Assembly: GCA_963281255.1 (NCBI GenBank)
Contig: OY725492.1
Location: 1,530,213-1,594,212 of the forward strand
Length of the DNA: 64,000 nucleotides
Source of the DNA: Aphrocallistes beatrix
Taxonomy: Eukaryota; Porifera; Hexactinellida; Sceptrulophora; Aphrocallistidae
Reading direction: 5' to 3'
The number at the start of each line of letters is the position of its first letter. Position 1 is the stretch's first letter. The translations under genes and the position numbers were made by a program. This document shows, piece after piece, positions 12,395 to 58,100 of this stretch. The notes under the pieces were generated by a model, which saw nothing but the letters and a program-made list of their open reading frames with translations, ran no database searches and had not been told where the DNA came from.

Positions 12395-12834
12395 CTGCCA
12401 AGCACAGAAAGCTGATTTTTGGCATGTGGGAGTCTTTTGGCTATGGCTCCACCAAGTTCCGACCTTAGACGAAAATGTCAATTCATCATGGAGTTATGAC
12501 ATCATTCTCACCATTTTTATAATTTGATATTTCAGTTTTTCGACTATAACTCATCCAATTTATGTGATAGAAGGCTGAAATTTTAGTAGAATGTGAATAT
12601 TAATGTATCTCACTTATGATACAATTCTCATCAAAAATGATTACCCATCAATTTGTTATGATGTCATCAGTACGTACCAAAAAAAATTAACGTATCAAAA
12701 AAAAATTAAATTTTGTGATTTTTGAATGATATTGATTATAACAATAAGACAAACGTATTTAGAGATGTTATCTACCTTAAAATTAATAAATGTGAGGCCA
12801 GCCTTGCAGCGTAAGCAAGCGAAGCGCGCGCTTG
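12395..12834 (+). mobile_element. GC-tipped dispersed repeat, tandem second copy
   Basis: It follows the previous copy head to tail. It lacks the first 35 bp (starts at CTGCCAAGCACAGAAAGC) and part of the tip hairpins, and ends GAAGCGCGCGCTTG. Confidence 0.85.
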
Positions 12835-12839
12835 TGTAT

Positions 12840-14990
12840 ATTTAAACGCTCGGATTTTGTTCTTCCCTTCAAAAATCTCCTTTCTTTTGACATCTTTGTT
12901 AAACTTCGCCGCTGGGTTCCTACTTAAGTAATCAGCCACTACATTCTCACTTCCTTGTCTATACGTAATTATAAAGGGAATTTCCTGTAGCTCCATCATC
13001 CAACGGGCAAAGGTGTGTTTAGGATCCTTTTGGGACTGCAACCATTTGAGAGGGTTATGATCAGTAAGCAAAACGACACTGGAGGCCCCTTTCAGATATA
13101 CGGACCACTTCCGAGTTGCCGCAATCAGTGCCCAAGCTTCCAATTGACCTGAGTAGTTCTTTTGAGAAGGACTTAGTGATGAAGAGAAGTATTGGATAGG
13201 TCTCAATTTTCCAGATAGTTCGTCTAGCTGCGACAGGACCAGTGGCAGATCCAGGAATCTCTGATGGGGGGGATATCAACCCAGCTGGGGGTCTGGGGGC
13301 GCTGTAAGCCCCCCGCCACTGGACAGGACTACTGCTACTCCTCTTAAACTTGCATCTGCCTTCCAATCAGGGTGTGCCAGTGTGATGTGCTCATTTACCA
13401 GCTGTCTACGTAGTTGATCAAATGCATCCCGACATTGCTTGTCCCATTCCCAGGGCTTACCTTTCTTTAACAGGGCGTAGAGGGGTTGAGCGATTTGGGA
13501 AAGATCCTTGACGTAGCATCTGTAATAGTTTATCGTACCTAAAAACCTCTGTAATTCTTTGCGTCTTTTGAGGAGGGGCATCTCCTGTATGACTACAATT
13601 GAACTCATCCAGTCTACATCTATCGGGGCGTTTATGGTGGAGAGCAAACAACGATTCGTATTCAGTTGTGAGTTCCTAAAGCTGAGCTGCATTAGACCAT
13701 GTCAGATCGCTAGAGATAAGTCCATTTGATTCCATGCCTTCTCCTTTCGAAATCTCTTCCTCTTGCTTTGCAATTCTTGCACGTGTCAAAGGTGTGGATC
13801 CACTCAAAGAGTCCTCCACTGGAACCCAGGAACTACCAAGCCGAATTCGCCTATTATTCCAGTCAAAGTTCACCGTACCATGATGTTCCATAAAGCTTCT
13901 GCCAAGAAGCAGAAGTGGCTCTTTGCTGTCTAGAACTTGCGTTCCGTTATCGGTTGGAGATCTCCTATGCAAATAGGAGCATCGACATATCCCTGAACTT
14001 TGACTAGGTTACTGCAGAGGCCAAATACTATCCTGCTTGAGGTGGGTATTAATTTACCCGCGAGATCTATTTGCACTGCTGTGTCATAGTCAATAACGCT
14101 AGGTTTCGCGCCTGTGTTCAGCATTGCAGCAACCTTATGGGAACCTATCTTGATTTGAACTGTCACATATTCCTCGCCGGATGATAATTGAAGTACCCTG
14201 GGTTTCCGGGTTTCTCGTAATTTCTCGTCCCCGCTCCTGTTTCCACTCCTCCGAGGGCAATTATACGGTCTATGTCCCACATTGCCACAGGTAAAACAGG
14301 GCCTACTCGGGCAAAATCGTACAAGGTGATTCGACGAGCCACATGCATAGCATTTTAGCGGTTCTGATCTTCTTTTATCTGCAGTTGTGCGTTTATACCG
14401 GATAGTTTGTACCGTAGACGATGGTGTCTCGGATGAGCTCGAGTTTGCACTTTCCGGATTTTCTTGCGACGCTTCCTTCTCGCCTATTCTTTCTTTTATG
14501 ACCTGTACCCTAAGGCCTTTACTTACAGGTATTCCCTTTTCGGTGAGCGTTTTCCTCACCACCGTACTAAATTGAAGCGCATCTTCTACCGACATGTCGT
14601 TTCCCTTGGGTATTATCCATTCTTTCAATTTAATTCGGGCCTCAGGTGGTACCTGGGATACCATGAGTATGCACGCTGTTTTAGCCGTCACCCCAGCCTT
14701 GAAGGCCTCCTCTAGATACCTTGCGAAAAAGTCCTGAAAGGGCTCTGGTATCCATGTCATCGCACGGAACCGAGCTGCAGAATCGAAAATATCCTCCTCA
14801 GGATCCAAACGTTCCTTGAGATACGTGAATGCCTCTTCTAAGGTTTCCTTTGAAATTGCTACTAGCACTACCTTCTCCTCCAGTCTACCACGTTTCACAT
14901 ACGCCGGTAGTAATTTCATAGCTGCTTTCCTTGGGAACAGAATTGTAGTACCCTAAACTCACTTCGAAGAAGCTTCTTCTGGCTGAAAAT
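12840..14990 (-). pseudogene. Ty3/gypsy retrotransposon relic (gag-protease-partial RT-RNase H)
   Basis: Read right to left. A gag frame (14919-13930, 329 codons) has two CCHC zinc knuckles (CYACGSSNHLVRFC and CFTCGNVGHRPYNC), then a retropepsin-like block in which the active-site DTG is NTG (LNTGAKPSV). The end of protease lies in 13972-13676 (LLLLGRSFMEHHG). The reverse transcriptase catalytic core is deleted: 13692 joins directly to the connection region (LQRFLGTINYYRCY). RNase H follows (13206-12840, LLTDHNPLKWLQ, ARWMMELQEI) and is cut off by the repeat at 12834. Mutated active site, deletion and frame breaks make it inactive. No LTR was identified. Confidence 0.85.
13240..13321. mobile_element. 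82-bp hAT-type MITE in the gypsy RNase H region
   Basis: It begins CAGTGGCAGATCC and ends GCCCCCCGCCACTG. A perfect 8-bp target duplication, GACAGGAC, lies at 13232-13239 and 13322-13329. Excision restores the gypsy frame between GVAVVLS and the RPIQYFSS block. It belongs to the same CAGTGGC-ended group as the elements at 24626-27185 and 63763. Confidence 0.9.
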
Positions 14991-23578: not shown

Positions 23579-24076
23579 AGTAATACAATCGACTCTGCTT
23601 AATACCGTCACATCGGTCTGAGGACATTTTGCCCCGATTAAGCGGAGAACCCTATTAACCGAAATATTTTGTATGAGCTTCTATGTGTGAGAGCCAAGGC
23701 AGTCAGAAGTGGGGCAGCTGGGGAGACCCCTGTCAATTGACAAGTTTTCGATCTTGACCGTAATCAATATGTGTATGATGACTTAATTAATTAGCTGGAA
23801 ATCCGACAGTATATATCAGCTACTCGAGATATGTTTATTAATAACTGTTTGGGTGGTCTAGCATGAGTGCGCATGTAATATGTATACAGGGTGGCTCATA
23901 AGTTCTGTGACATTTTTTCATACCCATTAATTTTAATTTTGATTTGGATAATAAGACAGTAAATAAAATTTATTTTATCACTAGATATTCAACTTCAGTT
24001 TTTCATTAGTAATTTTCACATAAAATTCCATTTTAGTATTGTGTAGCTAATGGAGCGTGATCGATATCACAGCGTG

Positions 24077-24418
24077 CCAAATTAGTGAATTTTTCAATCT
24101 CTTGTCCCAGATGTGAAACCTATGTAATTTGTTTCTCTTATATGTGTATATTCATATGCTTAATTCCAAAAAATATAGTATCTTGCAAAATCTTGATTTT
24201 CACACCCCTTTGTCTGTATGACATGAGAAAATTCAAAAAAGTTTTTTTGCTTTTTAACTTTGCGTATGTTGTATTAGACTCGTAAATTTATGACAAGGAA
24301 CAGAGAAATCTACCTTATGCGGTCGTATTTATTCATAAATGATTCAATAACCAATATTAATTGATAATATGGCACCATCCGACCCAAATTTGGCGATTTC
24401 CCTCTTGGATCAGCTATT
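24077..24418 (+). repeat. Left 342-bp terminal inverted repeat
   Basis: It pairs with 29929-30267 over its full length, with few mismatches and small indels. It ends at ...CTCTTGGATCAGCTAT. Confidence 0.9.
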
Positions 24419-24673
24419 TCTCCTGATAGACCCCATCACTAGTTAATATTCTGACTTAATCGGCCAATTTCCCTTCCATTGACACTTATTTCTCTTTGAA
24501 ACAACTGTGAAACATTTGGTAAGGTCAGACTATAGGAAAAAGTTTACTGTCGTTCAGAGAGGCCAATGATTTTTATCATAATTTGTTCTAAAAAAATTCG
24601 TTTTACGAACTACTACATTAGTAGTCAGGGGCGGCGCCAGCTTTATCATTATGTGTTGTGTATGGGTCGCAGC

Positions 24674-27058
24674 TAGGGTTTGGAATTATCCGTCTTTCAC
24701 AAATATCCGGATACCGAATACTTTTTCATCAGAGTATCCGGATATCCGGATATCCGCCTACAAATAATACCTCTGTCTTTCACATGTATTACCTAAGATA
24801 ATTGACTAATTCAACGAACATTAATTATTTATCTAAACGAATGACAAAATAAGTAATGATGTGTAATATATTAGTCTAATTCTTTTGATTCTTGAAATAA
24901 CTTCTGATGAAACATAAACTATCTAAAGTATCATCAGCTAATCTAGATCGTATTTTTGTTATGAAGAGACCAGCAGCCGAAAACGCTCTTTCAGACTCCA
25001 TGCTAGTTGGAGGTATTGTGTCCAAAGCTTCCGAGACTAAGGTGAGATTTTTTGACTTTGTACCTTTCTTTCTGAAGAGATCCAACTCATCACTTATAAT
25101 TTGATCTAATGTCTGAGTGGGAATCTTGTCGTTTGTGGTAGTTGTTGATTCGCGAATAGCACTTTCAAGTTCAACCAGCATTAGGTTAGTAGGTTGCATG
25201 AGACCTGGGCTTGTGAAGTTGTGTACAATTTCACAAGGAGCTTCTTGACCAGCATTACTCTCCTCGAATATCCCTTCAACGTTTATGAATTGCGATTCAG
25301 TATCTGAAAATTCGCTAGGAAATAATCTCTTAATAGTTGAGACAAGGGTGGAATTGTTTGTCTGTACTCCAGATATTCCACTTGGGTTAAGAAGAAAACG
25401 ATATATATTCACAATATTATTTTGTCTTCGTTCGAGAAAGCGCTTCTCTACAGCCGATTTCAGATCTTGACAGAATGAAATTGACGAATTTTTATCAAAC
25501 TGATCCATCAAAAATCGGTATACCCCTTCAGCTGAGAGCAAAGTTGCATCTCTACGACTTAAGGCACAAACAGCTATCTCAATTGGTTTTAGGCATCGAC
25601 AAATATGATCAAGAATCTCCCAATCAATTGAGTCCATCTTCTCTGTAGCTGCAATATCGATCAATGCTTTGCTTATAGGTTTTTTAAGAGATATGAATCT
25701 ATCTATCATTGCTAGCAGACTGTTCCAACGAGTTTTGCAATCAAGAAGGAGAGATAACTCTTTGCCATTCTCTTCTCTCACATATTTCTGGAGGATTGAA
25801 TTCTTAACCGGTGATCTTTTGAAGAGACGCACAATTCTCCGAACCTTAGAAATTACTTCCTCTATCCATTCTCTAAGTAATGGAGGTGGAATACTATAAT
25901 CAATACCGCCATCTAAATCAGTAATGGCATCATCACTGAATTCCTCTTCATCAAGGGGCATCTTTTCAATAAAGCTTGAGGTAGGTGAATATAAAAAATC
26001 ACAAACGGCTAAATGAATCCCGTGTGCATAACAAAGCTGTTGTTCTGGTTCGATCAGTTTACCATACTTAACCATAACTGAGGCTCCATCATTAACAGTT
26101 GCTACAATATGTTTGCTTAGAACTAAACCATATTCCAAAAGTTTATGGCTAACCATCTCAACTACTTTCTCAGCTGGCATACTTCCTGATATCCTTTGCA
26201 TACCCAAATTCCAAAAACATTCTTTGGTATGCAAATTAATATTCATAAATCTGCGATTATGACATGAAGTATACTCATCTAATGAAATACTGAATCTTGT
26301 TCCTTTGAGAAGTAATCCTGATATTTGTCTTGACAAATTTTCTTTAATACTTTTGCTGAAGGAAATGACAAGTCTTGCTGCAGTTTTCGGGCACAAAGGT
26401 GGGCTATATCCTTTTTCATTCAAAGATCTCCTAATGAATTGACTTCTTACTATTCCATGGAAGCTAAATCCATCCTCCGCAGTAAGTCTAGAGATCATTT
26501 CTGCTAAAGACTCCTTCTTGGTATAATACTGTAGAATTTCTGATTGATTATTACATTTCTTCTTTGCCGTTTCTGGGAACTCATTAAAACAAATTTTGTG
26601 CTTCTAGCGGCAATGATTTCGCATAGCACTAGTACAACCGCCCTTACAACAAATTTGTGTATTACATATATTGCATGTTGCTAAATCGCCCTGTCGTGAA
26701 AAATGTTGCCAAACTTCAGATTTCTTTACTTGAATTGTGGACATGTAGAATATAATTGGAGGAAATATTTTGATAATATACTACTTATAGTCATCTTGTA
26801 GCTGATAGAATCAGACAGATAGTCGAGTAGTATGTATAGAAATGTGTTATAGCAAAACAATCATTGTTATTGGTATTATGCTTGAAGCTTGTCAACAGCA
26901 ACGAATCTATATTTGTATCAGATTTGTTATAACGATTTTAAACGAATCAATTGTATGAATCCGGATATCCGTCAGGCTAATATCCGGATAGCGGATAATT
27001 TGTATGGTTTAGGTAACCGGATAGTATCCGGATATTACTATCCGGATTCCAAACCCTA
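24674..27058 (-). mobile_element. Complete 2,385-bp hAT transposon
   Basis: The terminal repeats TAGGGTTTGGAATTATCCG and CGGATTCCAAACCCTA are flanked by a perfect 8-bp duplication, GTCGCAGC (24666-24673, 27059-27066). Both subterminal regions are packed with ATCCGGATA words, probably transposase binding sites. It encodes one hAT transposase on the minus strand with a single nonsense codon. Confidence 0.95.
24876..26744 (-). pseudogene. hAT transposase, full length with one TAG
   Basis: A 623-codon frame starts at ATG 26744 (MSTIQVKKSEVWQHFSRQGD). A BED zinc finger (C-x2-C at residues 24-27, His 44 and His 49) is cut by TAG at codon 47 (26604-26606). The rest is open to 24876. Catalytic blocks: FSISLDEYTSCHNRRFMNIN (first Asp), VATVNDGASVMVKYGK (second Asp), LCYAHGIHLAVCD (C-x2-H), and near the C-terminus the dimerisation block PPTSMESERAFSAAGLFITK. 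One base substitution accounts for the only damage, so this is the least decayed transposase in the window. An uninterrupted product from Met 26498 (540 aa) would lack the BED finger. Confidence 0.85.
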
Positions 27059-27519
27059 GTCGCAGCATAAGGAAAATCTCATATAATAATTATTATGCTA
27101 TGTTCCATGCACCCCTTCAGGGGCAGCAGGAATTGAATCAGGGGTCGCAGCTGCGCCCCCTGCGCCCCCTCTAACGCCGCCACTGTTAGTAGTTATAATT
27201 ATTTCAATGCACTGGTTTACGATTTTCGTGATTCTTGAGGTCCATTATTAATAGAATTATAAAATAACGTGGCAATTAATATCCAATATGCAGCCACCAT
27301 TTCAGATTGGTTGTAATTAATTAACGGTTGACAAATTGTTTATAGTATTTTCCATTTATAATCTATAACCGTAAAATGAGATATGTAGTGGTTTTCTGGG
27401 TAATTGGATTCAACTAATTACTACGTAGTAGATAGTAAATACGTATACCTAGTATATATAGCACTATGTAGTGGAGTAAATCTTAATATAATATTATAAC
27501 ATCTACTTTCTACTATTAC

Positions 27520-29758
27520 ATGGCGTCCAAAACAGCTTCAAAAGTCCAAGAATGTTCTCGTGAACATTACGAAAATTTAGGGAGGGTATGCAGAAGGTGT
27601 TGCATCAAATGCATCGCAGCTGACTCAAGAAGTAAGAATCATGGCAGAAACTTAACTGCAGATGTTATCTCAATGTATTCAAAGCATTGGGATCCAAATA
27701 TCGTCTTCGATTTTCAAGAACAAATGCGATATCCTCGTGCTATATGTGATAAGTGCAGAACACAACTCAAGCGATTTGATAATCCAAAATCATTTTCCAA
27801 GCAATTCCGATTTACAAAATGGCCTAGAAATGGAAAGATCTGTACTCCTGATAATTGTCCAGTATGTTATGAGGCAGCAAGGCATATCGGTCAAGTAAGT
27901 TATTAATATAATTAAATATTTCTACTCTGTTCAATAATTTATTCTCAATAATTACTTACGTATCTAGGAAATAAGATACAATCCCGACACTCCAGATAAA
28001 TCAAAACCAAAAAGGCTAATATTTAACCGCTGCGGTTTGTGCTTGCAAAAGATCGGAAAAGGGCTCCCTCATCGATGTCGATTGGCACAGCAATCTGCAA
28101 AAATTGCACTATCTTCGACTGATAATTTTATCAGCCGTACCCAGAAGAGAGAGCTGGTAGGAATGCTGATCAAAATTGCTGAAGAGGCAGATGCGTTTGA
28201 TATTCTGGCCGAAGAAGTAAGAATGCGTACAAACGAGGTTCCAGTAACATCTGCTATAATTATAGACGAAAATGTCCTCCCATCGATAAAAGTAAGCAAT
28301 TAGTTGACTGTTACCTCCACACTTTAATACAACTTAATTGTATTTTGTTATTGTTTAGGCTAATACCGGTGGAAAAGCTGGGCAGTCTATTAGATCCCTC
28401 CGTGAGATATATTCACAATTGAAGAATTGTAATATTTCAGTTCCTAATGTAAGGTGCTTAGAAACTCGTAGGAGGGAAATAATAGATCCGTTATTTGCAT
28501 GGGAGCTTGCAGTATTCGAAGAAGGTACCAAAAAGAATCGATCTGAAGTTGAACATTCTCTTGCATACTGTAAATCTATTGTTGAAATTGATTCACTAGT
28601 AAGGCAAGTAAATGATTATGACAGCTCCCATCCTCTTAGATGCAAATTAGGGTTGGATAAAGGACAAGGGTTTCTTAAACTCACTGCTCAGTATATGGAA
28701 ATCGCATATAACTCAATAAAAACAACCTTGATTTTAGCTGCCAGTCCATGCATAGAAACACACAACAATTTATTCAAGGTTCTCCAGAAAGTTTTTCCGA
28801 ACAAATGCTTTAATGACATTCCTTCCACAACATTTTTCTTATCATGTGATCTCAAGGTCCAAGCCATGGCAGCAGGTAGTATACATTTTATCTACATGTG
28901 TTCCCTTGCACTCGGTATATTTATTAAATTCTTAGGTATAAAACAAGCAAGTGCTGCACAACCATGTCCTATGTGTACTTGGACGAGAACTAAAGGTTTT
29001 GAAGACGAAGTTACAGAATATCGGAATTATGACCAGGCCGTAGAGATTGTCACTAATAACGATTCAAATTCCAAAGGTAGGAAAATGTTTTTCACTAGTG
29101 AGTGTAACTACCAATTTTGCTTTAACAAATACGTACTATGCATCATTTAGGCTATGAAGATTTTCCCTTATTTGAAGTAGACTTTTTCCACTTCTTCTGT
29201 TTTCCAGTCCTACACATTCTTTTGATGGTAAACAATATTCTTGAGAAAATATCATCTGATATAGGTATTTCAATTTTTGAGACATTCCAGAAGTCACTCC
29301 ACACTGACTATGGTATAAAATGGCAATCATACCATGGAATCAGCTTGGAAGGAAATGATTGTAGAAAACTTCTGAGAATTACCAATGACATTACATGGCC
29401 TGAACAAACACCCGCTTCTTCCATCGACGTACTGGTAAAGTTAGATTCCATCGTAACAATATGTTTTTCTTCTAATGAACCAGATAAAATTGCTGCACAC
29501 AATGCAGTCTGTGAATTTAAAACTGCTTGGATTCTGACAGGATGGCCAGTAACATTAAAATCACACTATATAACTTCACATTTATTGGACAAGATTGAAA
29601 TGCTGGAGGAAGGAGAGGGTTTAGGGGTATGGTCTGAAACTGCGTGTGAAAGTTCTCATTCTGCCTTCCGTGATACATACACTAGATTTAAAGGGCAAGA
29701 AAGTGATTTAATGAAAGCTTGTTGTGAATATAACTCTATGCGTTTGAAATTGTATTAA
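27520..29758 (+). CDS. Transposon protein with RAG1-N-terminus-like zinc motifs, four exons
   Basis: Exons 27520-27894, 27968-28291, 28359-29097 (or 29076) and 29151-29758, joined by GT-AG introns of about 50-75 bp; about 680 aa. Exon 1 has CRRCCIKC (24-31), ICDKC (75-79) and C-x4-C-x2-C (108-116), with spacing and context (YPRAICDKCRTQL, DNCPVCYEAAR) like the zinc region at the N-terminus of RAG1. Exon 2 adds CGLC...HRC (147-162). Exon 3 has LSCDLKVQAMA (Asp about 397) and PCPMCTW (about 436). Exon 4 has LLMVNNIL, LEGNDCRKLLR, SHYITSHLL and SETACESSHSAF (about 640), a pattern common to uncharacterised invertebrate transposon proteins. No Transib/RAG1 core is apparent. All exons are intact. 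The role as transposase is inferred from position inside the TIRs. Confidence 0.7.
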
Positions 29759-29928
29759 TATTATCTCTGATACTTGTATCATATGTATGTATTATTTACT
29801 TTATAATAGATAATGGTAGTAATAAACAGTGAACGATACTTTATATTAGCAAGGTTGTAGTTAAGAGAGGGCTTGGGACCCCCAGAAATTACATAAACTA
29901 AGTATATTTACATATACCTCCCCAATAT

Positions 29929-30267
29929 AGCTGATCCAAGAGAGAAATCGCCAAATTTGGGTCGGATGGTGCCATATTATCCATTAATATTGATTAATGA
30001 ATCATTTAAGAATAAATACGACAGCATAAGGTAGATTTCGCTATTCCTTGTCATAAATTTACAAGTATAATACAACATACGCAAAAGTTAAAAAGCAAAA
30101 AAATTTTTTGAATTTATTTATGTCATACAGACAATGGGGTGTGAAAATCAAGATTTTGCAAGATAATATATTTTTTGGAATTAAGCATATGAATATACAC
30201 ATATAAGAGAAACAAATTAGATAGATTTCACATCTGGGACAAGAGATTCAAAAATTCACTAATTTGG
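29929..30267 (-). repeat. Right 339-bp terminal inverted repeat
   Basis: The reverse complement of 24077-24418. It ends AAATTCACTAATTTGG next to the CACACTGTG target copy. Confidence 0.9.
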
Positions 30268-31419
30268 CACACTGTGCGATGTGCTGTAGTTGGATTATTT
30301 CAAGCGGGGTATAAACCGAAGGAAATTTCCAAAATGCTCAAAATGCCCAGGGGAAGAAGAATGTTTGTTGTTAGGGCCATTAAGAGATATCTGGAGACTG
30401 GAAATGTTGAGGATAGGGCCAGGAGTGGACGTCCGTGTACTGTTGTGACCCCAAAGGTGCGGAAGACAGTGCGGGAACAAATTCGAAGAAATCCCCGGCG
30501 ATCTATGCGTAAAATGGCATCAGTCATTAAAATATCTCGCCGATCTGTTCAAAGGATCGTTAGGGACCATTTAGGAATGAAATCATTCAAAAGGAAGAAG
30601 GTGCACTTCCTTACTGACAAGATCAAGGGAAAGAGACTGGTTAAGAGCAAGGGTCTGTTAAAGCGGCACACTATTCATGGAATGAACAACATTCTTTTTT
30701 CAGACGAGAAATTATTCACGATAGAAGAAGCTAGTAATGCTCAAAATGACAGAATAATATCATCTAGTGCTCATTCAATCCCAGAAGAGTTGCATTACGT
30801 TGCGAGAGTTCAGAAACCACTCTCTGTCATGGTTTGGGCTGGGGTTTCGGGCATTGGTCGGACATCCCTGGTTTTTGTTCCGCCAGGAGCTAAAATCAAT
30901 TCAATCTCGTATCGCGAGCTTATATTAGAGCCTGTACTGAAAGATCTAAGCCAGTCCATGTTCTCTGGGAATCCTTTTTTATTTCAACAGGATGGTGCAC
31001 CTGCCCACACCTCGAAACTCACCCAGGCATGGTTAAAGGAGAATATCCCCGATTTTATTACCAAAGAGGAATGGGCCCCCCTACAGCCCCGATTTGAATC
31101 CAATGGATTACTCGATCCGGTCTATTTTGGAGACAAAGGCTTGTGCTAAAACCCACACAAATATAGAGTCTCTTAAGGCGTCGTTGAGGAGAGAATGGGA
31201 TAAAATACCTCAGGAAACACTGCTGCTGCAGTAGAGGCCTTCCCTCGTAGATTAAATGCTGTAATTCAGAAGAAAGGAGGGTATATAGAATAGTTATTCT
31301 TTCTAGCATATTATTAGCAAAACATGTAAGTCTAGTGCAAATAGCAAGTAGGACCAGTGTATTTTAAATATATAAATGGGTTAATATAAATGTCACAGAA
31401 CTTATGAGCCACCCTGTAT

Positions 31420-32755: not shown

Positions 32756-34850
32756 ATGAATTTCTTGGATATTGACAAGGAAACGATTCGACAAAAGTTT
32801 GATGAAGATGGTGGTGAGGCTAAGCTGGTAGATATTCCACTGAATATGACGAGGCAAAGGGAGTTTGACAAACGGATTCGCGCCATCGAAATAAATGGGA
32901 AAATTGTGCCCTACCTAATGTGTGAAAGTTGCAAATCGATACAACTTTGGTATAAATATGATTCAAAGAAGGCATGTTGGACTAATCAGAGCGGATTGAA
33001 TGCTATGAAGAAACATCTTACAATATGTTGCAAATCGGGTGATACAAAGTCAATGGATATAAAGCGAATGCTGGAGTCTAAGGAACCATCCTCTAAACGT
33101 AAATGCCTTGATAGTCAAAATGCTAAAGGATGGAAAGACTTTGTTGTTGTCTTGTTGATCAGCTGGCAAATAACCCAACAGTTTCAATTTCTGCACATTC
33201 TAGGATAGTATCAGATGTAGCCAATTTTTCTGCTAGCGTAACTCATTCCAAAGGTTCCTTATTCGATTTTGCAATTGGACGTACACAACTAACGAATCAT
33301 CTAGTCGAACGTGGTAAAGATTCACAAATGAAACTACAGATGATATTTGACGCTGCTGTACAGCGAGCTGATTTCGGGGTAGCAGGAATTGTAGATCACT
33401 GGTCCGCGCGCCACACATATCTAGTCCCATATGGTGCTTTGGTGGTGTGTGGGATGGATAACAATTTCAATTGGTTCCATTTCCCACTCAGAGTGGAATC
33501 AATGGGAAGTGAGAAAAAAGACGCATACCATACATTTGAATTTGTGCGTAACTCTATCACTGGTAAGAAAAATACTTTTGCGAATCCTTTCTTCATTTGT
33601 TCAGATAATGAGCCCAAAATGAAAGCAGCGTTTGATGGAAGATTTGACGATCCAGGAGGATTTAGTCTCGAGGGTCGTGTTGGCTGTGTTGAGCACGCAT
33701 TATCGATTTGTATCAATGATGTTTTTGAAAAAGATTCTCAATGTGATTTAAACAAATTTATTAGCCAAATTTCTCTGATCGAAACCTTTTATAACAAAAG
33801 ACCAGGATTGGCAAACAAGTTACCCGTCTCCATTCCAGAGAAATCAACAACCATCCATGGCGATCCTATTTCAACCGATTTAATGCAGTTGTGAAAAATT
33901 ACTCCCACTATCAAATGTCGGATGACCTGGAAATTATGGAAAATTTGCCTCCTTTACATTTATGCAAAGCGGCATTCGGGATTATGGCTGATGTGAAATT
34001 TTTTCTAGACAAATTAGAGATTAATGGCCCTACTGCGCATCTATCTTTTTTGAATTACCTAACACTTGAATTCAAATTGTTCAGAAAAGAAATAGGCATC
34101 GGCAGTACCCTACAACTTTCGAAGAAAACCGCAGGTCATATACGATCAGTGATGGGGAATAAATTATGGCCTTATTCTAGTAGTTCATTTTCAAAGGCGG
34201 CTGCTTATCTTACTGGTATAAATTTTAAAGCCAAGATTAAAGATTTGATTGATTCTATTGCTCAAGATGCTACCCTCCATGATATATGCATTACGTCATT
34301 TATGGAAAGTTGGCTGAAAGAGGCTAATGATTTTGATTCAATTGTAAAGGATGAGATACGATTTATATTAAATAGTCTTCCCAAATTACTGAATGAGAAG
34401 TCAATCAATGCAAATCAGCAGGTAAAAGTCAGTTCTGCAGATTTATTTGACAGCCTATTTGATACAAACGAAGACACATCTACCACAGAAATGGAGAGTG
34501 ATGTGGACATTTTATTATCTGCGGAATTCAAAAGGTTTGAGCTTCAGCGTAAACCTACACATGATGTACAATCATTCTGGAAGGATTTTTTACTCCTCCG
34601 ACGTGCTGCAATAATTTTGTTAAGTGTGCCTGCCTCTTCTGCAGCTGTGGAACGGTTATTTAGTGAGGCTGGACTTATCCTAACCAAACTACGTAGACGC
34701 CTGGATTCTGGAAAACTAAAGGCTCTGGTTTACATTAAATATGCCTCCAAGTATACTGATTTGTATAATTTAGCCTGGCTTAGTAACTCGCCCGAAAGTT
34801 CAAGGTTGCTTTGCCAAGTACAAGTATGGATATCCTGGAATGCGAAATAG
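32756..34850 (+). pseudogene. hAT transposase, about 700 codons with two frameshifts
   Basis: It starts at ATG 32756 (MNFLDIDKETIRQKFDEDGG). A zinc-binding region (CESCKSIQ...KKHLTICC) fits a BED-like finger. The frame shifts near 33145 and again near 33850. The catalytic part reads FFICSDNEPKMKAAF (Asp), VGCVEHALSICINDV (C-x2-H) and WRSYFNRFNAVV. The C-terminal dimerisation block is SAAVERLFSEAGLILTKLRR, stop at 34850. The last frame (33891-34850) is intact over 319 codons. Upstream of the start is the TA-flanked MITE, not a promoter signal that I recognise. Confidence 0.85.
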
Positions 34851-35045: not shown

Positions 35046-35762
35046 CACAGAAATCATGTGGGAATGGGATGGGGATGGGTATTCAAATTCCATTCCCACG
35101 GCAACCCTGCTGGATAAACAAGAGGATTGATAAGTATACATCAGGAGAGATGCAAAATGAGATGGTGAAGCTAATGGCATTGCGGTCCTGCGACAAATTG
35201 GAGGAATTCTTCAGGATACATTATTTTGTATATTGATGGTAGATAAAACAATTGACATTTCAAACGTTGAGCAAGTTGTAATATGTATTAGGTGGGAAAG
35301 CGAAAAGTTTGAGGCTGAAGAGGAGTTTGTGGGATTGTATGAAGAGGCGTCTACTGGAGCTGAGGAAATCTATTCGGCTATTACTGATGTATTATTGAGG
35401 AGAAATCTTTCTCTTGCAAAAATCCGCGGTTTGTGTTATGATGGGGCTGCTACAATGTCAGGAGCCAAATCTGGTGTAGCAACGAGGTTGTACGCAACTG
35501 AACCCAGAGCTGTTTCCGCGCATTATTGCGGGCGCTCATTAAACTTGGTCTGTTATGATGCCATCAAGCGGTGTAAACTAATGCAGGATGCGTTGGATAC
35601 AACTAATGAAATAACTACGTATACTAAAAATGTCGGTTGACAGACCGATAGTGTTTTTAGGAAGTGTTCAAACGTGGTTAGGAAAGGAGTTGACAGTAAG
35701 AAATTGCTGACAGCAACTGGAAACAAGAAGAATCTGTTGGCTGAAGCAAACCGGAAATTGAA

Positions 35763-48453: not shown

Positions 48454-49192
48454 CTAGATCAAATAAATTTAAACCTGCAGAGGAATGGAATATGTATCTA
48501 AAATATTTTAAAGAATTATGACATGCCATTACGATGAACATCTTAAAAAGCAATACTTGTATATAAACTGAATAAAGGAATAATGCTAAAAAGTTGGCTC
48601 AATTGGAGTCATTTTTTAAAACCATTACAGCTATGAATTCAAGATTTATTCCGTAAAAAAGTGTAATTCAAAACTTAAATATTGAAAATATTTTCAAAAT
48701 ATATTCAAATATTTTCAAAAACAATGAGCAAATATACAGTACAATAGAGGTGAATGCTGTTTTGGTTATATCAATTCATCGAAGTGATATTTAATTGTCC
48801 ACACATAAATATACATATCAATGTATATCACTTGGAATCGGCGAAATGTGTCGTTAAAGTCTCATTGAACTGATATGAACATATATTATTCGTGCTGTAA
48901 AAAAATACTATAAAAGTAGATGATAATTATGAAATCAGGAAATAAATCAAAATATAAACATTCGATTCATTTGTTACCCAACTTTGGGTGATAGTGAAGT
49001 CATGGAAAGGTTCGGAATCGAAACTTAAAATTTACGATCCGATCCCGATCCGAGTTTAAAAGTGGATCGCGATCCTGCTCAGATTAAAAAAAAGATCGCG
49101 AATTAAATATATTTTAATTATTTTTCAATAAATGGGAGACAATTCATATTTGCACCGATAGAATTTGATTAATAAATTACTTGAATGCTCAC
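48454..49192. other. Intron 1 of the RNF213-like gene
   Basis: Bounded by GTGAGC and ...TTTGATCTAG. AT-rich. A GATCCGATCC / GGATCGCGATCC motif cluster lies at 49010-49110. No insertion recognised. Confidence 0.6.
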
Positions 49193-52100
49193 CATTTCAT
49201 CTTCTTGTACTCTAGCAAATAAATCGTGAATCTGAGTGCCAAATAAATTGGAGATGGGTGGTAGCTCTTGGCAGTCTAGAGGACAAATATCGTCGATGTG
49301 TACTGAGGTCCAGTCTCTCCCACAATAACTTGCAAACTGACTCCCACATACCTCTCTCTTTAGCTGCACTAGGAAAATAACATATACTTGATATTCAAGT
49401 AGATTCTTCTGTTCCTCCCACTCTTTCAGTTCTTCAATTATTTTATAGCGAGTACAAGCAATCAATTTTGAATTGTCTGCTCCTTTATCACTTTGCACTA
49501 GCAATACAATTTTATCACTTTGTTTCACTCGATCAGTCTGTGACTCTACCAACAAGAATTTCTGAATTTCCTTACTAAATTGTTGCTCAGTTTGAAATTG
49601 CTGGAGAGAAAGACATTTGATATAATCAAAATTGTGGCACAGCAGCTCTTTCAGCTGAAGAACATCTCTATCCGTCAGTAGTCTCGAGTAGGTAGTAGCT
49701 AATGTTAGATGAGGCTTTTTATTCTCACAAATAGTCTCCAAGGCATGTCTCAAGTATTCCTCAAGACTGCCTAGATGAAGCTTGAAATATTCATTCAAAA
49801 ATGGTTCATAATACTGTGTGAGTTGACTGCCCTTCAAACGTAACACAGCATCTATTGTGGCCATCTTCAGTAAGATAGTCTGACTCCTCTCTAAAACTGC
49901 TTGGGTGTCCAGACAGCTATCTAGGTCTGCTTCTGCAACATATGGGTACATTTCTTTTATAACTTGAAAGACAATCGAGCAAGGTGTATCTGAATGGTAA
50001 CCAATAAAACAGTCTCCTTCAGAGAAAATATGGTTTTTAAGCCCTATAGCAGGAGGATTAACAATTGTTGAAAAGTTTCTAGCCCATTCTGCTAATTGCG
50101 AGGATATACCTTTGCCTTGATCGGATAGTATGCTGGACATGGTAAGAAAGTGTTTCTCAAGGCGATTGATGAGTGGAGTTGGAAATTTCGCATATACTGT
50201 TTCAGTATTAGCTATTACTATAAGCTTGAAATCTTCATGTACTCGGGATTTCATTCTATGAGTACCCAAACCAAGGTCAACCCATCTCTGTCCAAATATT
50301 TCCATGTAGTATTGATTGAGCGCATCATACAAACTCTCGTATAAATTCTCCAAGTTTAAGAGGATCACTTTTTTACCAGATTCCATACAAATCTTAATCT
50401 TATTAATATTTCTACACACTGTGGAATACTCTTTATCTTGAGGAAAGCTTGATCCAAATATCACAGAAACATTAGAGGTGTCATTTTTAGGCCACATTCT
50501 CTCTGAATTCAAGAGAATATCAAGAGCGGCGTAATTTTCAGTCAAAAGCAAAAGATACCTAGTTTCTCCATGGAAAGTGCGATTAAAATTTGATAAGTTT
50601 GCTTCAATCAAATCGAGTGGTGAGCAATCAGGACCTTTCTGATCAATATTTTCAGGAAGTATCAGTGTCTTATTAAAAAATTCGACAGGATTTATGTGAG
50701 TAATTCCACCAAAGTTTCTCAGTATTGCATGCTCTAAGATTCGATAAGTAATTTGTGATTTAAAGCTATCACACAAGAATGCAAGCATCTTTATTAGACT
50801 ATAGAAATCTCTCAAACCAAAATAATGTTTTGAAGCTGTATTGTCATTAGATTTCGTGTAGTTGGGACAGGTTGAGGAGAGTTTTTTATAAGCTTTCGCT
50901 AACTCAGGAATGGAATTAATCAGACTTGTGTGAAATAGACTCTCACCATTTCGCAGAATACCCTTTGCACTAGAGACCAATTCACTAATATCGGGATCAC
51001 TCCTACTGACCATTATCCCGCGATTCATCTTAGCAGGATCTAATGCCCAGTTAGATATTCCTATAAAAGCCACACGACTATTATCATTTCCATTTTCAAC
51101 CGCGCGTATAGCATCACTAGGAGATGCGTGAGGATCCGCAGAACAATTCGAATCTCCTCCAAACTCTGAGTGGGATTCTTCTGCTATGTAATTGCCATCT
51201 TCAAGCAAGGGATGGAGGACTTTAAGAGGAAGTTGGGGAGAATCCTCTGCTAAACCAACTTCATCAAGAACAACACAAGAAACGAATTTGTTCGAATCTT
51301 TACCTCTCTGGAAAGATCTACAGTTCCTGAAAACACCTATAATCCCGTCTGCAGTTGACAATTGGCTGCATTGGTAAGACATAATCTGCACTTCTTTGAA
51401 GTTTTTCAGAATGCTATTATCTGGGCAACTTTCTCCTAGCATATTATTCGAAATAATGGTTTTAGCAAGAGATTTCGAGCTTCCAGGTTTTCCAATCACG
51501 AAGAGTGGTATTTTGAGTTCGATACAAACAAACATCATGAAAACATTTTCTTTCAAAGCTATGTTTTTCGCAATATGTTCACCAACGACCATTGAATTAA
51601 TAACATTTTCTTGACACTCATTTACAAGAATGTGAATTTCTTTAGGGTCATTTAAAGGAGAAAGTGGCGGTAAGAATTTTGAAAAAATAAATTCATCAAA
51701 TTCCCTTCTAATTTCAAGTTTCGCACGATAGCAAACAGCTAATGCAAGAATAAGACAGTCAGTGAGGTCATGTGAAAAATGGTAGGATTTTGAAGTGTCT
51801 TTAATCCAACTTGTGTGAGAATGTTCAGAAGATATTGAAGGAATAACGCTGGAGTGTTTATTTGGTGTATGAATCTTTCCTGTTAGGATATTCGAACTTT
51901 TGGAAGGAGATCTATGTTTAGAAGAGTGATGCGGAGGATACGGATGTGATCTGTGTTTGGAGACATGTTTTGAACTAGATGGTAAAACTGAATGTTGAGG
52001 AGAATCAACTAATTCCGTAGTTTTAGTAGCTTTTCTTGGAAAAAGATAGTTGCGATTTCTATAGAACCAAATCAAAACTCTCATCGCCCTCTCGATGTCT

Positions 52101-55100
52101 CTCAGACTTACAAAACTGCATTCGTCCTTGCGAGTTCGCATGTAGTTCTGAGCACTTGCCAGAACCTCTGTTATCGCATCCACTACGTCATGACCTGCTG
52201 CAATGGGACTATTGCGATCTTTTAAATGTTTATCTACAATCTCACGAGTGTATGTCCTCTCAATGGTATTGCTCAGCTGACCGAAATCCCAAACCAGAGG
52301 CCGCAGGCTAGCAGGAAGTTCCATTACTCGATACACCAATTCTCGGAGAGGAATGTCCCCCAGTCTGTCTGTAGTCTTACTCGCCTCTGTAAAGAAACCG
52401 AGACCAGCAGAACTCAGTTTTTTCAGCATCTCAGTCGAGTGTTTACGGTACGGGTTACAGGCAGCAATAAACTGGAGTCCTATGTCAGTACGGATCTTCC
52501 TCCCATACATCCTCTTATCACACATGATCTCTTTGATTAGACCGATAGCAGGACTCGTGTTAGCTTCATCGAAAAAGAGAACTGTGTCAATATTATGTTC
52601 TCGCCAATTACTTGCAGCCAACTCCTCAGCTTCCTTAACTTTAACTTTAACATCCTCTTCTGTAGTTCCTCCGTGGACTTTCAAGATTAACATGTTTCTC
52701 TCTCCAGTCAGCGGACCTTGCAAATCACACATATACTGAATGAGTCTGGTCTTACCGCACCCCGTCTCCCCCATGATAACTACAGGGATGTTGCATCTGA
52801 AACGCATCAAAATAGCCAAAATCTTCCGTACATTGTCAAGAGTTAGCACATAACCAGGATCTGGATCACTCAGCCATTCTATGCCCATTACCTTGGCAAT
52901 CTTCCATAGCTTTGCATATTTATCAAGTGTGTAGTAGTTCTCTCGAAGGTCAACTTTGTTTTGAGTCAACAAAGCTATTAAATGTTGGGGCATGATGCTA
53001 TTTTGTATTATCACTCCAGGTCTGTCTGGGTCAATGAGATGACCAACTTCTGATATGTGAAACCCCAAAAATGTCATTGTCTGTTTATCTGGGTTAAAAA
53101 ATATATATGGATGACAATTCTCTTCCCATCTTCTTTTCTTTGCAATTTCGTACCTCTCTAGAATGCTACTACCTGCAGTGTCAGGTTCAGAAACAGAAAA
53201 TGACGTAGCGAAATCACGGGACATAGTTATCATAAATCTAACCACAAAAGATTTAAATCCTTTCCAATCATTACCCATTAATCCGGGAATGCAATAATGA
53301 GAATGCTCACAATCTTCTAACTGTCTGTTAAGGAAAGAAACGAAATTTCTAACTTCTGCCCATGAAGGATTGGGGACATCACAATATTTCAAGATTATTT
53401 TGAGCGCTTGATTTCGGTGTATACGCATTTGGGAATCATGGATATCGAATGAAATCGTGTCCATATCGCCACCAGTATCCAGCATGCTGAGGTAGAGGGC
53501 AACGCGCTGAAACGGTTCCTGCTTTAATTCTTTCAATTTATTTTCTTGAAAACGTGAAGTTGTATGTTTATCGAATTGGTATGGTTGAGTGCATTCACTT
53601 TTCGGGAATAAAGAAATAAAGTTCGCTAGAGATGTCTGCACAGTAGTGTCAACAGTCATTTCTAATACGTAATAATCCTGAGGTCTGCAGTGCCACAACT
53701 CACCAGTTCCTTTGCAAATACTCCCTAAAACGAGTAATTTGAACAGAATGGGCTCTAAACCTAACTGTACAGTGGAATTTATATCCACATGGAACAGGAA
53801 TCCGTGTTCCGCAGAGCTCACATGCTTCCTCAACAACTCTGTAGTCAGTTGTTCTTCTGAGGCCTGCTTGCCGTGTAGGGCTACAGTCACGGCAGCTTCC
53901 TCTCTCTCCTTCTCGCTCACCACACCATCACTCAACATGTTAGACACGAGGTTACTCACGTACAAAGACTTACCTGCCCCTACACTCTCAGACACTACTA
54001 GCCTCACCCTAGACCTCGCTGCGTCTACAAACCAGACGGGGTCGTAAACTCTAGATGCCAAAAAATTGTGAGATTTAAATCTCTCCAATAAATAGGCATT
54101 AACATCCTTAAGTTTGGGAGTAAAGAGAATTGGGATTTTAAAGTTCTCAAAAGCTGCTGCCATGTATGACTGCTCTTCCAACTCTTCTGAGCAAATTAAC
54201 ACAAGTTTGTAGTTAGAACTAGAATCAAATTTCTGTTTAAAATTCCAAAACAAATTTGCGGAATGAACAGCTACCTCATATCTCAGATTCTCTATACTGA
54301 CTAGGCAGAATATGCATCTGTCATTTACATCTGACTTTAATAATGCTCGTCTCCAGAATATTTCGATTTCTTCAATCTCAGTTAGAGCCGTACAAATCAA
54401 AACTTCATGGTAAGACGGGAGGAGTTGCACGTCTTCCAGACTGTAGAGATGGATAACATACGAATAGAGGCTGCAATTGGGGACTAAAACGAGGTTGGGT
54501 TGAGATTCTTTCATAGTGGGAGGTAGTACCCTTTCTTTCCTGGAACATAAAGGGGCATGCATATGCAGACATTTGAGAAATTCACCAAGCTGATGGAGAT
54601 CTGTTAAGTCAGCTCCAGATCGGAAAATATTTCCAGAATTATATCGGTTCGCTATGGTAACGCTAGATAAAGGCCTGGGATCCTTTACAGGAGTAACATC
54701 CATTGAATCGTCATTTTCACCTCCTTGGTTATTCTCTAGGCACCACTGAACCAAATTTTGCTCTACAACAGTACCATGCTCAGCTTTTAGTGCCCGAATA
54801 CCTCGTATAACTACTTCGAGAGGTAGGCCGCAGTCCTGATGAATATTTTCAACCAATTCCTTTTCATTTTTGGTAAATTCATCTGGGATTTTGTCTTCAC
54901 CTGTGTTGGCTTTGCTAATAGTTGGAGTTTTTGATTTAGCTTTGAAAACTTTTTTGTAAGCGAAAGGAGAGAGAGAATGTGATTGCTTAGAAGGAAAACT
55001 AGCCTCTTGCACTATCTCTGCGCTCTTTAAAGCGCGAATTATATCCTCTCTCTTCAGTTCATTATTTAACAATGAAAGTAAATGGTTTAGTTGCTCTACA

Positions 55101-58100
55101 TCCTTACTTTTGAATTCATTCTTTGTAAAACTATGAATGCCTTTTCGCAACAGTGCAAGCTGTTTTGTAGTGAAATAATTGAGAAAGTAATACTTGTCCC
55201 GCGTTTCTTCCAAGGAATCCTTCCAAATTCTTAAATCATTTTCTGTCTGCTTCATCTCATCTTCAAGTCTATCATTTTCTTTTAATGTTAGCTGAAATTT
55301 GTATTTGAGATATTTGAAATTTCCACACTCAGACAGCTTAGTTAGAGTTTCAGCAAGAATGGTGAGTTTTTCGAGAAGCTGAGAAAACAGTCGTACTGTA
55401 TCAATACTGTTCAGTACAGAATTGTCAGTTGTGGAATCTGTGGAAGAATTTCTCCCGACAACGAGATTCAATTTGCTGTGCAAGTCTTTAAGTTGTTCCA
55501 TATTGTACTGCGTAATTGCAGCACTCTCTTCCTGAATGCAAGCACTCACCGCTATAACATGATCCGAGTTTAGAACTTGAAACATTCCATTGTCACATAA
55601 TGTGTGCAATTGCTTGATGGCACTTTTCTCGAAAGATCCGTGAGAATGTTTCAGTCCTTCCCATAAGGAAAGTCTATTAGCCACCTCACGCAGCATCCCA
55701 GGTAATTTAGGATTTTTATCGATGCTCAAGTTCACCATCTTACACTTTCTCAAGAATTCATGATAACCGGCATTCGATTTAACATCGTAAATAAGAGGAG
55801 CGAAACTAGTGCACACAGTATGAAGTGTGGTGATGGTAAATAGCACTATCGGATTGTCTCCACAGTTACTCGTTGATAAGTCAACGAACATCTTCAATTC
55901 AACCAGGTTGGATAGGTTGCTCTTCACCCAATTTATGAATTCATGGCAGCGCAAAAAAGATTCTAAACCCTCTCTATGTGAATCTGAGAACACCTTTAGT
56001 GACTTCCCTACATTACACATATCTTCACTGATAACTTTCAGTGTTTCATCCTTTAACTGTGTAGACACACGTACTAGCCTTTCCACTGTCTTGAAATCTC
56101 CTCCAAATTCGTACCGTAAAGCTATCTGTGAGATTAGTTCTGCAGTTTGTGTACAATCATGCAAAGTGAAATAACGATGGATTGTTTCAGCACATTTCCG
56201 AGCATCACTAGAAGGTCTCTTCTTTGTGTTTTGTCCCTCGAAAGATAGAACACCTTCAAGGAGCATATTCAAAGATTTATGGATTTCATTCACATCACGT
56301 GTCTCAAAGTACTTTCTCACATGTATCAACTCTATTTCATTAGATAACACTGATTCGTAGAACTCTCTAATCATCGTCATAGTAGGAGACCAGACTAAAT
56401 CATTAAATAAATCTAAATTAAGTGCAAATTCTTCTGCTTTTCCACTGTGCATTTCGAAATTCTGACCATATATGTCTTGGAATATGTGGGAATGTTGTAA
56501 ATGCTTAATTGAATCTGTAATAAGGACGAATTTGTCTGACCTGATCAACAAATTAAAATCTGAACTATAATAAATCTCAAACTGATTGTCCTTAATGCCA
56601 CATAAGTCCATCATTCGCATTTCGATTTTAGTGCATGGAAACTGAAAGTTAAGTGCAGTAAACACACTTTTTGGAATTGATTTGAGATGCTGAAACCTAG
56701 CCAGACATAAGTCTAGCTGATTTAATGAAGAAACAGACTCATCTAGAGAACATTTTATGGATTTTATGGAAAATTTATTCTCTTTAAAATGACAAGACTT
56801 TGAGAAAATCTCCAAAATTTTATAAAACTCCTGTTTTCTTCCATTACAACAATTCAGATCTTTGACAAGAATAGACCTGTCAAGAATAGAACGAATCAAA
56901 GTTATAAAACATTCGCTGACAATTAAGAGAAACATCTCGGCCTCTTCTTGTATTATCTCATTCAAGTTACCTTGGACAAAGAATCTAAAAAAATTATTCC
57001 AGCATATCCAATTAAACAAATGTACATAGGGGTCTTTTTCAAAATTGGATTTTTCTTCTAGCAGTATTTTACTGAAGATATCCTTATCGCCAGGAAAGTT
57101 TTTGGTTGTTTGAAGTTTGTTGACGATTATCTGTCTCTGATGATCATTAGATTCCAAAACTCGGCTCATAAGATTAGAACGGATAATGTTGTGAATCTCC
57201 AAACAAATATTTGTAGTGTATTCACTACAATATAAAAATATTTCCAAGTAATCATCCAGACGGAGTGAGTTAATTATCCTTGACAGCTGCTCTCCTAGTG
57301 CTGAAGTGAAATTGTAGTTTTCAGGAAATTTTAGTCCAAAAAACAAGTTCCAATATTCGAGCTTTTTCTTTCCATAAACACCTTTTTTCAGCCAAAATGG
57401 TGGTAAATCCGCTAATTCTGAATCTTTCAAAACGCCGAGTCTAGCTAGCTCATCAGAACTGAAAGATTCTGAAGCACAGAGTTCATGCGAAATTAGTTCA
57501 ATTATAAGCTGATATTCTTTTTCGTTCAAATTTTGACATTTTCTGAGATTAGAAAAAAGTTCAAAGGTAAGAGGAATGAGAGTATTTAAATCTACTTTCA
57601 CATTTTCTGACTTGAAACACGTAATTAGGTATTCATAAACTTTACAACGGAGAGAGACTTGATCTGATTTAGAAGCATTGAACCTCTTTAGCACTACGGC
57701 TAGGTAGGCAGAGATAGGGAGTTGATTACAGCTGATAAAGTTAGGAAGGTTTTTCTCGGATAATGTGAGGAGGATGAGACTATAGGGTAGAAGAGGATCT
57801 GAAGAAGAAGACACGAGTAACTCGTCTAAATAATTATTGTCAATATTAAGAATATTAAAAGAGTAAAAAGATTCTGGAAAGCCCCAACATCTTATAGCAT
57901 GAATATCGTTGGATACGAGCGGCAAACATAATCCTTTTTATAAAGGAAAACAAATGTGATGGTATAAAGGGATTAGCTTCAGGTATTCACGTTTAACTTT
58001 TGTTTCGTTAAATACAAATTGAGTGAAAAAACCTTCAATCTCATTTAATGTTTCAATTTCTTCTTTTAGAAAAGTATTTATTTTACTAACGACACAGTCT

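Follow-up and report, generated by a model that had tools for sequence, protein, structure and literature searches.

In the present study, we analysed a 64,000-nt stretch of Aphrocallistes beatrix DNA (assembly GCA_963281255.1, contig OY725492.1, positions 1,530,213-1,594,212 of the forward strand; hereafter the window) and found that the element at 24068-30276 very probably belongs to a young Chapaev-type family of cut-and-paste DNA transposons within the CMC/CMCT clade. The family was placed by hallmarks described in the literature and not by a tree. The Chapaev identity was assigned because the putative transposase has the CMC/Transib arrangement D...D...C(2)C...LH...H(4)H...E, the target-site duplications (TSDs) are 4 bp long, and the ends read CAC...GTG. 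It is a new family of a known kind, and the element leaves the known scheme unchanged. The family was probably active recently and may be active at present.

The hallmarks tested were taken from excerpts of three papers (PMC4079192, PMC12730594 and PMC4411706), in which Chapaev and Chapaev3 are traced to Kapitonov and Jurka 2007 (via PMC4079192 and PMC4411706). Chapaev transposons are described there as having 3-4-bp TSDs, CAC...GTG ends and a DDE (Asp-Asp-Glu) transposase with C(2)C, LH and H(4)H motifs (PMC4079192). The CMCT clade, Transib included, is described as having C(2)C and H(3-4)H motifs, mostly 5'-CA..TG-3' ends and 2-5-bp TSDs, with both motifs present in RAG1 as well (PMC12730594).

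Termini, genomic copies and target sites

Repeat comparison and genomic copies placed the terminal inverted repeats (TIRs) at 24068-24417 (left, plus strand, starting CACAGCGTGCCA) and at 29927-30276 (right, minus strand, finishing ...TGGCACACTGTG and reading CACAGTGTGCCA inward); they are 350 nt long and 93% complementary. The long repeats described in the first-pass annotation of this DNA were therefore real, but they were given there as 340 bp, and the ends lie nine bases further out. We took 24068 and 30276 as the true bounds because other copies end in the identical sequence although their flanks differ. These copies were found by searching the genome (100.5 Mb in 28 contigs, of which C2, C3, C4, C12, C14 and C17 are labels used here) with 158 nt of the TIR. 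The search gave 23 matches; 12 regions around matches were examined, and 20 ends were readable (both ends of seven two-ended copies, including the window copy, and a single end of six others within the stretch examined). All 20 ends started with CACAG(C/T)GTGCCA, with T in five and C in 15, and thus carried the 5'-CAC/GTG-3' termini of Chapaev. The form CACAGTG, which we take to be the consensus heptamer of the recombination signal sequence (RSS), was observed at five ends and CACAGCG at the other 15 (24068-24074 and 30270-30276 in the window, and other loci), the Chapaev hallmark itself being CAC only. When the 60-nt outer flanks were compared, just two ends had a flank in common; both lie on C17 (C17:1682418 and C17:3104310; L011 and L019), and one of them may reflect a segmental duplication or the assembly itself.

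With the nested stretch left out, the window element was 99.84% identical to the C4 copy (3635/3641 ungapped positions) and 99.64% identical to the C3 copy (3620/3633). These values (99.6-99.8% outside indels) bore out the earlier expectation that TIRs and gene move together. The terminus shared by 20 of 20 ends, together with three near-identical copies with TIRs and an open gene, indicated that the structure is not due to chance. The two TIRs of the window copy differ by about 6%, and this divergence gives no insertion date, since the left TIR is 100% identical to its C4 counterpart and 99.1% identical to that of C3. A nested hAT element accounts for the greater length of the window copy (6.2 kb, against 3.8 kb for those on C3 and C4). 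The gene is intact and has introns, as would be expected if it were a domesticated, immobile host gene surrounded by TIR relics. That explanation is exceedingly improbable: the three near-identical gene-bearing copies lie on different contigs with distinct 4-bp TSDs, and shorter TIR-bearing derivatives are also present in the genome.

Perfect 4-bp TSDs (AACA, TGAT, ATGC, AAAT, AGCT and CGCA) were found at all six of the other two-ended copies, in agreement with the 3-4 bp of Chapaev. Next to the window element stand ATAT (left) and CGAT (right). Its flanking target is repeated in the genome (26 matches; 21 for the left flank), and one CGAT was present at the uninterrupted target in 15 of 19 other loci (L060-L078; three search strings), the remaining four (L066, L073, L074 and L077) giving no match to the three strings. 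Because the 15 uninterrupted target copies read through the site with a single CGAT, we identified CGAT as the window TSD, with the left copy at 24062-24065, set off from the TIR by two bases that are weighed below, and the right copy, read from the sequence and the same target copies, at 30277-30280.

Mutator-like elements have long TIRs and a 9-bp TSD. A Mutator-like identity would account for the 350-bp TIRs and for the 9-bp near-repeat at the ends, which had been read as an imperfect 9-bp target duplication. The nine bases turned out to be TIR sequence, present with different flanks elsewhere. The genome search that had been suggested for copies with the same TIR did recover them, but with duplications of 4 bp in all six others; a 9-bp duplication was seen in none of the seven two-ended copies, and the Pfam matches included no Mutator profile. 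A Mutator-like element is thus extremely unlikely. The sequence hit by the insertion had been taken for a known host gene. Its interrupted open reading frame (ORF), with the start codon at 24050 and the rest at 30281-31149 (plus strand), matched HTH_32 (1.1e-9), PAX (2.7e-6) and HTH_Tnp_Tc3_2 (0.0036, under the cut-off) in Pfam. Judged from these matches and from its genomic copies, the target is a Tc1/mariner-type transposon and no host gene.

The transposase gene and its predicted catalytic core

The transposase gene (plus strand) consists of five exons, and its spliced product is 654 amino acids long. Exon 1 (27520-27894) encodes the RAG1-N-like zinc domain with C24/C27, C76/C79 and C112/C115, and exon 2 (27968-28291) encodes a C-x2-C...H-x-C motif (CGLC...HRC). 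The candidate catalytic residues D333 (LDKGQG) and D397 (SCDLK) are in exon 3 (28359-28875), C(2)C (C416/C419) is in exon 4 (28936-29076), and LH 473-474, H(4)H 591/596 and the candidate catalytic E619 are in exon 5 (29151-29758). An alternative exon-4 donor at 29098 (vs 29077) would extend the exon to 29097 and yield 661 amino acids. The earlier model of four intact exons at 27520-29758 was right that the gene is intact; as a four-exon model it was rejected, having read through intron 3 (28876-28935), which is 60 nt long, in frame and stop-free. We regarded this intron as excised, and not as exon, because intronless relatives match the spliced spacing: their DFKVAAMLVGIQQASSKHPC equals the spliced form DLKVQAMAAGIKQASAAQPC, the L051/L052 type being two residues shorter there. 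Spliced alike, the window, C4 and C3 genes form a single open frame to the terminal stop (654 amino acids in the window and 659 in the other two), and window exon 1 lacks 15 bp present in both C3 and C4 copies. The previously noted motifs CRRCCIKC, ICDKC, C-x4-C-x2-C (CTPDNCPVC) and CGLC...HRC were all present.

The core of the window protein carries the series D333, D397, C416xxC419, L473-H474, H591x4H596 and E619, corresponding to D-x63-D-x18-C-x2-C...LH...H-x4-H-x22-E, and a loose-spacing form of this motif occurred in 11 of 20000 core shuffles. In a seven-sequence alignment of the transposase family (A1), D333, D397, C416, C419 and H474 were invariant, and H(4)H 591/596 and E619 (SE-x3-E) were aligned where the rows reach. 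At the sequence level, these residues, the predicted catalytic triad included, corresponded to the DDE, C(2)C, LH and H(4)H motifs of Chapaev. The Asp of SCDLK (D397) and the Glu of SETACESSH (E619 in the corrected protein) had been suggested as active-site residues, and the conserved motif series supports both as candidates; the accompanying view that the catalytic domain was unassigned and not of the Transib type did not hold, since the core has the CMC/Transib arrangement. Diverged relatives were also detected in the genome, where at least 34 of at least 88 protein matches (matches, not elements; 68 of 124 candidates scored) had 25-41% identity. A further Chapaev-type family, observed at C12:2695300-2697300 (L085), has motifs like CVDLK, C(2)C, PPLH and H(4)H; no zf-AD match in the genome was better than the one found there.

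The same series was found in mouse RAG1 (PDB letters) as C727-C730, H937-H942 and E962, following D600 and D708, which we take to be catalytic residues. The distance from D397 to C416 is 19 residues, equal to that from D708 to C727. Comparison of a profile of six H(4)H-to-E family segments with four RAG1-like segments gave an E of 9.9e-5 and a probability of 58%, and 0 of 200 column shuffles reached the score. The four RAG1-like rows were mouse RAG1, RAG1L of 6b40 and, from this genome, two elements with Pfam RAG1 matches at 2e-5 and 3e-5, just under the cut-off. This motif spacing, the RAG1-like N-terminal domain and the CACAGTG at five of 20 ends would also be consistent with a Transib/RAG-like (ProtoRAG) element proper instead of Chapaev. 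Such an element is very unlikely here: the TSDs are 4 bp vs the 5 bp given for Transib in the excerpt of PMC8355894, the two Asp residues are 64 positions apart vs 108 in mouse RAG1 (D600 to D708), and the Pfam RAG1 recombinase profile PF12940 left the transposase family unmatched, though it matched the two other loci at the values just given. Those matches fall in the C-terminal parts of L083 and L084, which, with L082, are located on C2 and C14. To judge from their sequences, this genome contains in L082-L084 a second lineage of RAG1-like transposons; 19 weak Pfam RAG1 matches were obtained in it at E up to 10.

Several results weigh against the Chapaev reading. The two extra bases AT (24066-24067) between the left CGAT and the TIR of the window copy are absent in the six other two-ended copies. 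The H(4)H-to-E segments were hand-cut around the motif, and two of the four RAG1-like rows came from this genome. The whole core gave no significant hhalign match to the single mouse RAG1 sequence, no Pfam transposase model matched the core, and Pfam DUF1280 (described as Chapaev), like Pfam RAG1, did not match the transposase family; DUF1280 gave one weak match elsewhere in the genome. When Pfam and PDB were searched with either the whole protein or A1, the only matches were weak ones to unrelated families and one to zf-AD. AlphaFold without an alignment, run on exon 1 alone, gave a predicted local distance difference test score of 36.5 and no usable model.

The lack of a Pfam transposase in the core would also suit an N-RAG-TP-like transposon whose catalytic domain is new or unrelated and whose duplications are 9 bp long, as would the RAG1-N-like zinc domain; N-RAG-TP is described, in the excerpt of PMC8355894, as wholly RAG1-N-like sequence. 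This explanation is highly unlikely, as it is contradicted by the 4-bp TSDs, the CAC...GTG ends and the DDE core with C(2)C, LH and H(4)H, and the C-terminal module matches the RAG1-like profile. The simpler form of an N-RAG-TP element without a core was rejected, a DDE core with CMC/Transib motifs being present. As a Chapaev-type enzyme, the 654-amino-acid transposase would bind the 350-bp TIRs, probably as a dimer, with the N-terminal zinc domain helping. Cleavage at the CACAG(C/T)GTG ends would be performed by a predicted RNase H-like DDE site (D333, D397 and E619) braced by a putative zinc site (C416, C419, H591 and H596), and joining of the element to staggered target DNA would produce the 4-bp duplications.

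The N-terminal zinc domain, RAG1 and ZAD

A RAG1-N-like "Chapa" domain of Chapaev and Chapaev3 transposases was discussed by Kapitonov and Koonin 2015 (excerpt of PMC4411706). According to pattern and profile comparisons, the exon-1 zinc domain of the present family resembles the N-terminal domain of RAG1, the recombinase of vertebrate antibody genes. The likeness was already published under the name of the Chapa domain. The pattern CR-x-C...C-x2-C...C-x2-C was found in two of 50000 shuffles, its spacings having been set after the pattern was seen. A six-domain hidden Markov model scored 13.7 bits against mouse RAG1 107-236, above all 2000 shuffles, and 13.1 bits against RAG1 107-228, a score that eight of the 5000 Cys-fixed shuffles and one of the 5000 full shuffles reached. 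Two profiles were searched against the 177,635 sequences of PDB, one of six N-terminal zinc domains (A2) and one of these plus two further domains of the same genome, eight in all (A3). The A3 profile ranked the RAG1 N-terminal domain 21wb first of 177,635 (E 0.023, whole sequence), with the three CxxC pairs in register, followed by 1pzw (E 0.12); its listing was without full-length RAG1 chains. Two Cys-fixed shuffles and no full shuffle, of 5000 each, reached the A3 score on RAG1 107-228.

The resemblance has its own counter-evidence. The best single domain of the A3 match to 21wb had an E of 0.54, A3 was built after A2 had missed RAG1, and hhalign of the zinc domain with the single mouse RAG1 sequence was not significant. 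In the A2 search of PDB, RAG1 was unlisted at E up to 10, and the best matches were grauzone 1pzw (E 0.027) and 7pok (E 0.074); we take 1pzw and 7pok to be ZADs. RAG1 was also missed in PDB by the A1 profile and by the N-terminal 167 residues alone. Pfam RAG1_imp_bd gave no match, and none was obtained in 14 control genomes either. The RAG1-N profile match anticipated by the first-pass annotation, and with it the Chapa domain, was thus recovered by A3, while A1, A2 and hhalign missed RAG1.

The zf-AD family (PF07776) was the top Pfam family for the window exon-1 domain (E 0.0035, 18.0 bits) and the best non-self family for mouse RAG1 107-228 (E 0.0045). The Pfam cut-off of 28 bits was not reached by the exon-1 domain or by the whole protein (12.3 bits, E 0.21), and the match spans the first two CxxC pairs only. 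None of ten Cys-fixed shuffles of the exon-1 domain and RAG1 107-228 matched zf-AD. Two results argue against a ZAD link. One of the ten shuffled controls matched the unrelated Actin_micro at E 0.0033, as low as the zf-AD values, so that a single E value of this size is weak; and zf-AD was unmatched in three of seven family domains scanned singly (L053, L058 and L080). The window, L085 and L086 domains were below 0.01 and L051 was at 0.25, and L085 and L086 give no independent support because both were found through zf-AD. With E up to 1, the genome gave three zf-AD matches: two in N-terminal domains of Chapaev-type elements and the third in an ORF that by eye resembles a ubiquitin protease.

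We consider it possible, if somewhat short of probable, that the N-terminal zinc domain of RAG1, the Chapa domain and the ZAD of insects are homologous forms of a single zinc dimerisation module. The link is a lead and no proof, hinted at by several searches with scores below formal cut-offs, among them the PDB searches in which 1pzw and 7pok led the A2 ranking and 1pzw came second with A3. In one open-access library, no literature on RAG1 together with ZAD was found, and excerpts of one paper on ZAD together with transposase do not draw this link. If the link is true, the RAG1 N-terminus would have come down from transposases as a ZAD-like dimeriser, and the module of ZAD zinc-finger proteins may derive from transposons. 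How the RAG1 N-terminal domain functions in V(D)J recombination is understood only in part, and intact near-identical Chapaev copies with a RAG1-N-like domain would be practical material for biochemistry beside RAG1's own N-terminal domain. Since the RSS heptamer is matched exactly at some ends, and a resemblance of the zinc domain to ZAD is possible, the family offers a direct test of whether the RAG1 N-terminus arrived with the transposase or was added later.

Nested and neighbouring features, and comparison with known systems

A miniature inverted-repeat transposable element of 167 bp (24626-27185), with an 8-bp TSD TTAGTAGT, was found inside the window element and is shared by the C3 and C4 copies. 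That of the window copy is split by the hAT element (24674-27058, minus strand; 2,385 bp; 8-bp TSD GTCGCAGC), which is absent from the C3 and C4 copies and whose transposase ORF (24876-26498, minus strand) matched Pfam Dimer_Tnp_hAT at E 8.7e-8. Other transposon remains were located at 12772-14919 (minus), 33891-34850 (plus) and 35233-35640 (plus), with reverse-transcriptase RNase H and zinc knuckle, a hAT dimerisation domain and DUF4371. At 49169-57925 (minus), a 2,918-amino-acid open frame contains AAA domains (AAA_5 3.1e-6) and by eye resembles an RNF213-type giant protein. Rfam gave nothing at the gathering score within the window, and scans of viral and prokaryote contigs found no relatives of the element.

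The element shares with Chapaev and Chapaev3 the 3-4-bp TSD, the CAC...GTG termini, the DDE with C(2)C, LH and H(4)H, and the Chapa zinc domain, and its transposase is of similar size (Garfield_BM, 556 amino acids; excerpt of PMC4079192). It differs in that no RING-like motif was seen after the Chapa domain, where a short C-x2-C...H-x-C motif stands instead, and in that Pfam DUF1280 does not recognise this family. According to the same excerpt (PMC4079192), Garfield_BM has two exons, whereas five were found here, and Garfield has a 3-bp TWA TSD, whereas the 4-bp TSDs here vary in sequence. N-RAG-TP of Aplysia californica, compared by description only (excerpt of PMC8355894), is likewise a transposon with a RAG1 N-terminal-like protein, but it has the RAG1-N-like part only, whereas a DDE core is present here. 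With RAG1, ProtoRAG and Transib, the likeness covers three in-register N-terminal CxxC pairs, the D-to-C(2)C distance of 19, the H(4)H and SE...E module, and CAC-type termini. Here, in contrast, the TSD is 4 and not 5 bp, no RING or RAG2 partner was seen, the D-D distance is shorter, and no significant alignment with RAG1 was obtained over the whole core. The ZAD (zf-AD) of insect zinc-finger proteins shares the CxxC...CxxC module, although that match lies below the Pfam cut-off and covers the first two of the three CxxC pairs.

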